Of a DNA stretch of 64,000 bases, positions 40,005 to 41,778 are shown in pieces (the first letter of the stretch is position 1; each line of letters begins with the position of its first letter). This DNA is from Edaphocola aurantiacus (GTDB lineage Bacteria; Bacteroidota; Bacteroidia; Chitinophagales; Chitinophagaceae): assembly GCF_019797745.1 (NCBI RefSeq), contig NZ_VOSI01000001.1, forward strand, positions 680,928-744,927. Direction: 5' to 3'. A model generated the notes under the pieces. That model was not told where the DNA came from. It made no database searches and saw nothing but the letters and a program-made list of their open reading frames with translations. A program made the position numbers and the translations under genes.

Positions 40005-41138
40005 TTATTTCCATTTCCGGGCTATACGAATGGCAGTTTCGAGCATATCGGGCTGCCATTTTTCTATATCCCAAACGCTGTTGCGTAAAGCGGTATGCTG
40101 CAGCTGCTCCATTGCCTCTGCATGTCCAGCCGCGTGTTCGAGGATGTAGGATAAGATCTGCTGTTCTCCGTACAGGTACTCATCTTCGATAATTTGTCCC
40201 GGAGGCAGACTTTGCTCCGGCAGGAAATTATTAGGAACTGCAGCCATTCGGGGATGATGCTCCAGGAATTGTTCTGTGATCTTTTGCATCTGCTGAAAAT
40301 CATTTCTGAAACCGATCTTAGCTGCTTCAGTTTGCAGGCCGGCACCCAGCTGTTCCATCACCACATATTTTACCTGCGGGCACAAAGGCAAGGTCCGCTC
40401 CAACAGCTCAAATACCGATTCCGGCACCCTGCCATCATGCGTATCTCTGCGTATGCTACGGCTTTGGTCGGTCACAGCGGTTTCCCAGCTGCCTCCGGAG
40501 ATATGAATCTCTCTGACCCGATCCAACGGATAGGCTTGTATCAGGACTTCAAATGGTATATTGAAATTGTGTAACTGGCAGTAGACATTGTGGAGGTCAA
40601 GGATAATGAATCCGTTTACCGGTTCTATTAACTGCTCCAGGAATGCTCCTTGTCGTTTTACCTCATCCAGGCTGTAGGCAAACGCCAGATTCTCCAGTCC
40701 TACCGGGCATTGTGCGGCATCCTGTATACGTTGCAGGCGATCGCGGCCTATGGCTACTGTGCCTGAAGTATAGGGAACACTCATTGGTGCTCCTTTATGA
40801 AAATCACTGCCGGTCATGAAACCGAAATGTTCTGTAATATGATCAAAACGGTATTGTCTGGTCAGCTGCTTCAAGCGCTGCAACCATGCAGCCTGCTCCG
40901 GCAGCAGCCTTCCGGAGAACAGAGAAAAAAATACCCCATGCCCAATAAGCCGGCCTTCATTGCTGTACGCAGTCAGCAGATCATAAAACCATTCCGGTAT
41001 CACATGATCCTGCCGGAACAGGGCATCAAAAGACCATTCCAATGCGCCTACTACACCCTCTTCTAATAAAGGTAAGGATGCCGACAAGATATCGGCATCC
41101 AGGTTACAAGCAATAGTGGGTAAAATCGTTCTGCTCAT
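40005..41138 (-). CDS. DUF692/MNIO family enzyme with C-terminal extension
   Basis: The 377-residue protein has the DUF692 TIM-barrel and the expected metal ligands: H67 (IGHGVFF), H100 and H104 with E103 (DHITEHFGFMTGSD), E149 (GLENLAF), D181 and H183 (LDLHNVY), H212 (HISGGS), H234 and D235 (RRDTHDGRVPE), and E262. Members MbnB, TglH and ChrH use two or three irons to modify cysteines of RiPP precursors. It starts 9 bp after a 59-residue Cys-containing peptide gene, its likely substrate. Residues about 300-377 form an extra segment not needed for the barrel; it may bind the precursor or replace the separate partner protein seen elsewhere. The product chemistry is unknown. Confidence 0.88.
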   Translation of the reverse strand: MSRTILPTIACNLDADILSASLPLLEEGVVGALEWSFDALFRQDHVIPEWFYDLLTAYSNEGRLIGHGVFFSLFSGRLLPEQAAWLQRLKQLTRQYRFDHITEHFGFMTGSDFHKGAPMSVPYTSGTVAIGRDRLQRIQDAAQCPVGLENLAFAYSLDEVKRQGAFLEQLIEPVNGFIILDLHNVYCQLHNFNIPFEVLIQAYPLDRVREIHISGGSWETAVTDQSRSIRRDTHDGRVPESVFELLERTLPLCPQVKYVVMEQLGAGLQTEAAKIGFRNDFQQMQKITEQFLEHHPRMAAVPNNFLPEQSLPPGQIIEDEYLYGEQQILSYILEHAAGHAEAMEQLQHTALRNSVWDIEKWQPDMLETAIRIARKWK

Positions 41139-41147
41139 AGTAATTTT

Positions 41148-41327
41148 TTATCCCATTCCACAGGCCGGGCAGTTATATGCTGTATCCGGCTGTTGATTGG
41201 CAGGGTTTTCAGTCCCAACCTTTTTCGCTTTTTCCGGCTTGGTTTGCACCTTATCGCAGGAACTGCTGCTTGCTTGTACGGCCAGCCCAACCACCAGGGC
41301 TCCCAATACTTTTTTAGAAATTTTCAT
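41148..41327 (-). CDS. Candidate MNIO RiPP precursor peptide (C-terminal CPACGMG)
   Basis: This 59-residue frame runs from the ATG at 41327 to TAA at 41148. An N-terminal export segment (VLGALVVGLAVQA, about 7-19) is followed by S20-C24, where a signal-peptidase or weak lipobox cut could occur. A Lys- and Gln-rich linker leads to the C-terminus TAYNCPACGMG with C53 and C56. Cys next to Pro/Ala/Gly at the very C-terminus is the pattern of peptides modified by DUF692 enzymes; from memory, Chryseobacterium chr precursors end in the same CPACGMG. It lies 9 bp before the DUF692 gene and 40 bp after a lipoprotein gene. Its small size would let gene callers miss it. Confidence 0.78.
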   Translation of the reverse strand: MKISKKVLGALVVGLAVQASSSSCDKVQTKPEKAKKVGTENPANQQPDTAYNCPACGMG

Positions 41328-41367: not shown

Positions 41368-41778
41368 TTATTGCTTTTTCAATTTGTAGATATCAACTGT
41401 AGTATTTCCCTGCTGGCGGGTAAGCACCAGGGTATCATCATACTGGGTTATTTCATAAGTTCCATCCAGGATCAATGTCCAGTCAAAATTGGCACTCCAT
41501 GTGCAGGTATCTTCAAATTGTACCTGGTTGTTGCCGATGGTATATGTACCGGAGCAAAGTGCAGGATAGCGCTCCATAGAAGCGTTTCCGGTCCAGTTAC
41601 CATTGGATAAGGTAAGGCTTACTGCTGACGGGAGGCTTGAAGCCAGTGTCTGGCGCTGAAAAGTCCCAACATAAGTCCCGTCGCTCAGTGTAACCGTTGC
41701 CGGGTCCCGGAACATATCCTTACTACAGGAAAGTAAGGATGTTGCTATACATAAAAATATTATACCTGTTTTCTTCAT
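41368..41778 (-). CDS. Lipoprotein with lipocalin-like barrel, first gene of the MNIO operon
   Basis: The 136-residue protein has a lipoprotein signal peptide with lipobox LLSC (lipidated C18). The mature part is a small beta barrel: DGTYVGTFQRQ, AVSLTLSNGNWTGNAS, LCSGTYTIGNNQVQFEDTCTW and DDTLVLTRQQGN. C75 and C92 could pair. It starts the transcript that also carries the precursor (40 bp downstream) and the DUF692 enzyme. Whether it belongs to the RiPP pathway, for instance as a surface receptor or carrier of the product, is inference; such lipoproteins are also common alone. Confidence 0.7.
   Translation of the reverse strand: MKKTGIIFLCIATSLLSCSKDMFRDPATVTLSDGTYVGTFQRQTLASSLPSAVSLTLSNGNWTGNASMERYPALCSGTYTIGNNQVQFEDTCTWSANFDWTLILDGTYEITQYDDTLVLTRQQGNTTVDIYKLKKQ

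Follow-up and report, generated by a model that had tools for sequence, protein, structure and literature searches.

A DybA/DybH-type precursor and MNIO gene pair in Edaphocola aurantiacus, predicted to make a lipid-anchored RiPP

We analyzed a 64,000-nucleotide stretch of the Edaphocola aurantiacus genome (contig NZ_VOSI01000001.1, positions 680,928 to 744,927), hereafter referred to as the window. A 59-residue precursor peptide and an MNIO enzyme are encoded side by side in this region. We consider, with a probability of about 0.93, that this gene pair constitutes a minimal RiPP cluster of DybA/DybH (ChsA/ChsH) type, whose product would be unmethylated and lipid-anchored. The gene pair, its conservation, the selection acting on the peptide, the lipobox-position cysteine, the ligand positions and predicted fold of the enzyme, and the Lgt and LspA proteins of the genome are established by sequence.

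Precursor peptide gene

The gene for a DAG-RiPP precursor peptide of the DybA/ChsA type (ChrA-related), 59 amino acids long, was located at 41148..41327 on the minus strand, based on the NCBIfam profile NF050125, conservation, and reading of the open reading frame (ORF). Translation from the ATG start gives MKISKKVLGALVVGLAVQASSSSCDKVQTKPEKAKKVGTENPANQQPDTAYNCPACGMG, in which a basic N-terminus is followed by a hydrophobic segment, a hydrophilic linker, and the C-terminal sequence CPACGMG (C53 and C56). We divided the peptide into a lipoprotein-type signal (residues 1–23), a predicted lipidation cysteine (C24), a linker (residues 25–52), and the core CPACGMG (residues 53–59). The codons of the core and the stop codon occupy 41148..41171 on the minus strand and are where the macrocycle and hydantoin are predicted to form, by analogy with the chemistry of DybA and ChsA (PMC12636315). 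The precursor ORF is separated by 9 bp from the start codon of the MNIO gene, which is also on the minus strand. The 59-residue frame, its CPACGMG end, and the 9-bp spacing to a DUF692 gene, as described in the initial annotation, were borne out.

The precursor is alone in ending with CPxCGxG among the window's 896 ORFs (minimum length 20 aa). It scored 65.1 bits against NF050125 (cut-off 40), and the earlier description of the peptide as unannotated is outdated in the sense that this specific NCBIfam model matches it. NF050125 and PF05114 each gave a single match in the source genome (3.69 Mb, 8 contigs), both at this locus. The C-terminal LysC fragment of the precursor, VGTENPANQQPDTAYNCPACGMG, has a computed [M+H]+ of 2337.95 when unmodified, 2333.92 with a DybA-like modification (-4.03 Da), and 2347.94 when methylated. 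A promoter and terminator scan gave 6 promoter-like sites (4.8 in shuffles) and 2 terminator-like sites (2.3 in shuffles), and was not used.

MNIO enzyme

The adjacent gene (40005..41138, minus strand) encodes a 377-aa MNIO (PF05114), which was assigned to the DybH/ChsH type, with a TIM barrel and C-terminal helices, from profiles, alignment, and a structural model. The protein is 97% identical to that of Edaphocola flava, its closest named relative, and 57–58% identical to DybH of Dyadobacter crusticola DSM 16708. Identity to 14 Chitinophaga MNIOs was 58–62% over the best segment, with the C. sancti sequence not among the data compared, and identity to two enzymes of a Bacteroidia family with type I-like precursors was 43–44%.

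Assignment to chryseobasin proper was rejected. The enzyme scored 379.3 bits against NF050165 (ChrH), far below the equivalog cut-off of 600, the precursor scored 14.6 bits against the ChrA equivalog (cut-off 50), and no protein in the genome matched PF08592 (E 0.001), which we take to be the DUF1772 family, the domain of ChrI. A bufferin was likewise rejected, as the enzyme reached 91 bits against NF050167 (BufB), far below the cut-off of 310, and the core of the window precursor is CPACGMG. TIGR04159 (MbnB) gave 20.8 bits, also far below its cut-off.

Nine positions of the MNIO match the iron ligands of TglH (H67, H104, E149, D181, N184, H212, D232, H234, and E262) and are invariant in 58 sequences, comprising the window enzyme and those from 57 of the 80 loci described below. 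Seven of the ligands were matched by direct alignment with TglH, and H67 and H104 through alignment with 3BWW and spacing; the ligand list was taken from PMC10880893. The AlphaFold2 model of the MNIO had a mean pLDDT of 88.6 and a pTM of 0.89, and its top PDB matches were TglH and MbnB structures. Helices 320–335, 339–346, and 363–375 of the model lie where a C-terminal helical domain is described for the ChrH subfamily of MNIOs (PMC12636315).

Linkage and selection across relatives

The search for CPACGMG-type ends upstream of DUF692 relatives, suggested in the initial annotation, was run on loci encoding a relative of the MNIO, of which 80 out of 104 were kept. It was positive at 77 of the 80 loci, where the 900 bp preceding the MNIO contain at least one same-strand ORF ending in CPxCGxG. 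In total, 85 such ORFs were found upstream of the MNIO and none elsewhere among the 11,348 ORFs of at least 25 aa in the 80 loci. Two of the remaining loci encode peptides that end in CQGCGMG (L064) or CPACSMG (L081), each a single substitution in the motif, and retain both the signal and the place; at the third, from a metagenome-assembled genome (L094), no recognisable precursor was found. CPxCGxG ORFs were absent beside MNIOs of other types (0 of 23 and 0 of 17 fetched loci, 1.5 kb flanks). Two ChrH-type matches outside the 80 loci, lying near a contig end or partial (L118 and L149), also had no precursor.

Of 244 genomes sampled from the same family, 22 (in 13 of 101 genera) matched NF050125, 16 of them above the cut-off. 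The precursors of 15 of the 16 genomes end in CPxCGxG, and that of the other (L016) ends in CLACGMG. The six matches below the cut-off (L018–L023) are probably other lipoproteins, because their fetched loci contained no CPxCGxG ORF. NF050165 matched 36 of the 395 genomes of the class; seven, including the source genome, exceeded 300 bits, and the rest scored about 73 bits or less. A precursor stands beside the MNIO in six of these seven genomes. The seventh (L118) has no precursor, and its match begins at contig base 410 and contains an internal stop.

The precursor gene differs from that of E. flava at five positions, all of them synonymous and none non-synonymous. A simple count, taking about 40 synonymous and 137 non-synonymous sites, puts the probability of a 5:0 ratio in the absence of selection at about 0.0006. 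A synonymous/non-synonymous ratio near 1, which had been named at the outset as a reason to discard the frame, was not what we observed. The dN/dS of the MNIO against E. flava was 0.107. The exclusively synonymous differences from E. flava and the CPxCGxG ORF upstream of nearly all related MNIOs indicate that the precursor is a real gene. The proposal that this peptide is the substrate of the MNIO is likewise supported, as a prediction, by the NF050125 match, the linkage, the conserved motif, and the characterised relatives.

Lipobox cysteine and export route

A third cysteine, C24 (codon 41256..41258, minus strand), lies directly behind the hydrophobic segment and had been overlooked in the initial annotation. 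It is the predicted lipidation site (SSSS-C), based on its lipobox position and on conservation in the family. We compared 88 precursors, namely the 85 ORFs, the two motif variants (L064 and L081), and the window precursor. A cysteine at the lipobox position, 18–32 residues past the start motif, is present in 87 of them, and S, A, or G directly precedes this cysteine in every case (87/87). The exception is one of three precursors at L032 (5128-5373), which ends in CPPCGRG. The -3 residue in the window is S, not L; in the precursor family this position is most often occupied by T, V, A, or S. The signal type was assigned by eye together with family conservation. Profile searches of the genome matched two LGT proteins and one LspA protein, which constitute lipoprotein machinery.

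In DybA, this third cysteine is the lipidation site, and DybA is tri-acylated in E. coli (PMC12636315). Together, C24 at the lipobox position, the lipidation of DybA at the same cysteine, and the Lgt and LspA proteins of the genome lead us to expect a 36-residue lipopeptide as the exported form. Export after modification, as originally proposed, is still predicted and would proceed via the lipoprotein pathway; a membrane-anchored lipopeptide is predicted instead of a free secreted product.

The surface-export signal of Capnocytophaga is given as K(D/E)2 after the lipid cysteine in PMC5080379. By a simple pattern, Lys or Gln and two acidic residues occur just past the lipid cysteine in 16 of 87 precursors (e.g., L034, L035, L041, and L100), 11 of which are from Chitinophaga or Pontibacter. 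This surface-export-like pattern suggests that some of these RiPPs may face outward. Eight Chitinophaga precursors carry such a K(D/E)2 motif, whereas the corresponding sequence of the window precursor is CDKVQ. Since the window precursor lacks a motif of this type, we make no claim of surface exposure for it. A term search of the main text of PMC12636315 found neither "lipoprotein export signal" nor "surface".

Precursor variants in relatives

Several variants of the precursor were observed in related bacteria. Two or three precursors per MNIO occur at 7 of the 80 loci (L032, L033, L059, L068, L072, L089, and L099). Ten of the 88 precursors (L058, L070, L073, L079, L083, L084, L091, L102, L104, and L106) were read by eye as having an additional CxxxCxx[DEN]H motif, placed between lipid cysteine and core, which looks like a metal site. 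All ten are from metagenome-assembled genomes, comprising six Saprospiraceae, one Lewinella, and three unassigned Bacteroidetes.

In a Bacteroidia family designated f42, 2 to 4 tandem precursors precede one ChrH-type MNIO (L112, L113, L142, L144, L145, L146, and L148). These precursors have type I-like signals, no lipobox cysteine by eye, and differing cores, such as CPPCGMG, CPGCGMG, CEACGRG, and CGKCGKG, several of which are kept between genomes. Ten f42 loci scored above 400 bits in 87 genomes; two or more precursors were found at seven, one at L143 and L147, and none at L149, which is partial. When four of these cores were sought in the main text of the papers searched, only CPPCGMG was found, as an engineered DybA variant (PMC12636315).

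Gene neighbourhood

A 136-aa predicted lipoprotein with an LLSC lipobox, assigned by eye, is encoded upstream of the precursor (41368..41778, minus strand) and is a possible operon partner. Its gene lies between atpC and the precursor, and the protein matched no Pfam or NCBIfam model; L030 has a 50% identical copy at the same place. It was found in three members of the genus only (the window, E. flava, and Taibaiella sp. KBW10). Five genomes of the genus keep the order atpD, atpC, one variable gene, the precursor, the MNIO, and a chaN-like gene; the variable gene encodes the 136-aa lipoprotein in three of them and a second CPACGMG precursor in the other two. By tblastn, the atpDC/chaN-like location was found only within the genus (the window, E. 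flava, Taibaiella sp. KBW10, Bacteroidetes bacterium 43-16, and G192), which points to vertical inheritance.

Over a wider range, the most common neighbour after the MNIO was present at 9 of 81 loci (ORFs of at least 90 aa by crude ORF calling, flanks up to 6 kb), and the neighbourhood thus gave no function. SusCD-type importers are reported as frequent neighbours (PMC12636315). A search for viral carriers gave two pattern matches, from which no relative was confirmed.

Discussion

The pair described here is a further example of a system already characterised in related bacteria in a 2025 preprint (PMC12636315). DybA/DybH of D. crusticola DSM 16708 (L107) shares with it the precursor just upstream, the CPACGMG end, the lipobox-position cysteine, and a similar MNIO, and the L107 precursor agrees with the published numbering of DybA (M26/D27, A46, and a 13-residue LysC fragment). 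DybA is 50 aa in length compared with 59 aa in the window and has the lipobox TITAC in place of SSSSC. ChsA/ChsH is from Chitinophaga sancti, a member of the same NCBI family, Chitinophagaceae, and ChsA gives a -4 Da product (PMC12636315).

Chryseobasin (ChrA/ChrH/ChrI) of Chryseobacterium shares the CPACGMG core and the MNIO subfamily, as described in PMC10214503; this confirmed the statement in the initial annotation that chr precursors have the same end. ChrA differs from our reading of the window precursor in its type I signal and its lack of the third cysteine, and it yields an S-methylated product (PMC12636315); the chr cluster additionally holds ChrI, ChrE, and ChrP (PMC10214503). Bufferins (BufA/BufBC) and methanobactin (MbnA/MbnBC) are also MNIO-modified RiPPs but carry other modifications, and about 16% of one bufferin family has predicted lipoprotein signals, according to PMC12452194. 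As models for the window peptide, DybA and ChsA, with their unmethylated -4 Da products, are closer than bufferins or MbnA.

We propose the chemistry, the absence of methylation, and the lipidation by analogy with characterised relatives. In the cytoplasm, the iron cluster of the MNIO would bind the C-terminal CPACGMG of the precursor and perform a four-electron oxidation with the loss of four hydrogens. C53 would be joined to the former C56 in a macrocycle accompanied by a hydantoin, leaving one free thiol and no methyl group. Afterwards, Lgt and LspA would lipidate C24 and remove residues 1–23, resulting in a 36-residue membrane-anchored lipopeptide with its modified end free. DybH converts CPACGMG into a macrocycle and a hydantoin with a -4 Da change (four hydrogens) and no partner protein, as solved by NMR for the DybA product, and ChsH and HymH also give -4 Da on ChsA and HymA, as determined by mass (PMC12636315). 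CPACGMG is a sufficient recognition tag for DybH, and the preprint likens the DybA macrocycle to the B ring of nisin (PMC12636315).

Because the core is identical in ChrA and the window precursor, and ArlAH gives a mixture of methylated and unmethylated products (PMC12636315), an S-methylated ChrA-type product (chryseobasin, +10 Da) has to be considered. We regard it as very unlikely, since the enzyme is 57–58% identical to DybH and scores under the ChrH cut-off, and DybH, ChsH, and HymH all gave the -4 Da product (PMC12636315). The lack of a PF08592 protein in the genome also argues against methylation, although ChrI is now reported to be dispensable (PMC12636315). It is hardly credible that the peptide is no more than an ordinary small lipoprotein standing by chance beside a DUF692 gene, with a coincidental CPACGMG end. 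Its lipobox-position cysteine and its place downstream of a second predicted lipoprotein (41368-41778) would fit such a case, but CPxCGxG ends occur only beside this MNIO type in the loci examined, and this very end is the recognition tag for DybH.

A metal-binding or metal-sequestering peptide resembling bufferins or methanobactins, as initially suggested, would be compatible with an unmethylated, lipid-anchored product of the DybA type, and concerns its function. The membership of the enzyme in the MNIO family, the binding of copper by bufferins and methanobactins (PMC12636315; PMC12452194), the free thiol retained in the modified DybA-type product (PMC12636315), and the extra Cys/Asp/His motif of the ten related precursors are consistent with this role. 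However, a second Cys/His motif is absent from the window peptide, no neighbour (ORFs of at least 90 aa, crude calling) is common to more than 9 of the 81 loci, and the DybA product, a thioether macrocycle and hydantoin with one free thiol, shows none of the absorbance that comes from aromatic groups in methanobactins and bufferins; its authors describe the function as unclear (PMC12636315). We found no direct support for a metal role and consider it unlikely. Also quite unlikely, in our estimate, is that in Edaphocola the lipidated macrocycle works with a companion from the same operon (the 136-aa lipoprotein, or the second CPACGMG precursor in two relatives) as a membrane-display module whose macrocycle binds a phosphate-bearing envelope ligand.

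The two genes very probably encode a genuine RiPP precursor, conserved among relatives, together with its enzyme; the central proposal of the initial annotation stands, now including lipidation, and the metal role is unsupported. The pair provides a new, well-conserved example, from a small-genome lineage of Chitinophagaceae, of the newly described lipidated class of RiPPs. The comparison shows a nearly universal lipid-anchor cysteine among the precursors examined, and two unexplained precursor variants in relatives. Present only once in a genome of 3.69 Mb, the pair is a handy place for gene deletion and a search for a phenotype.
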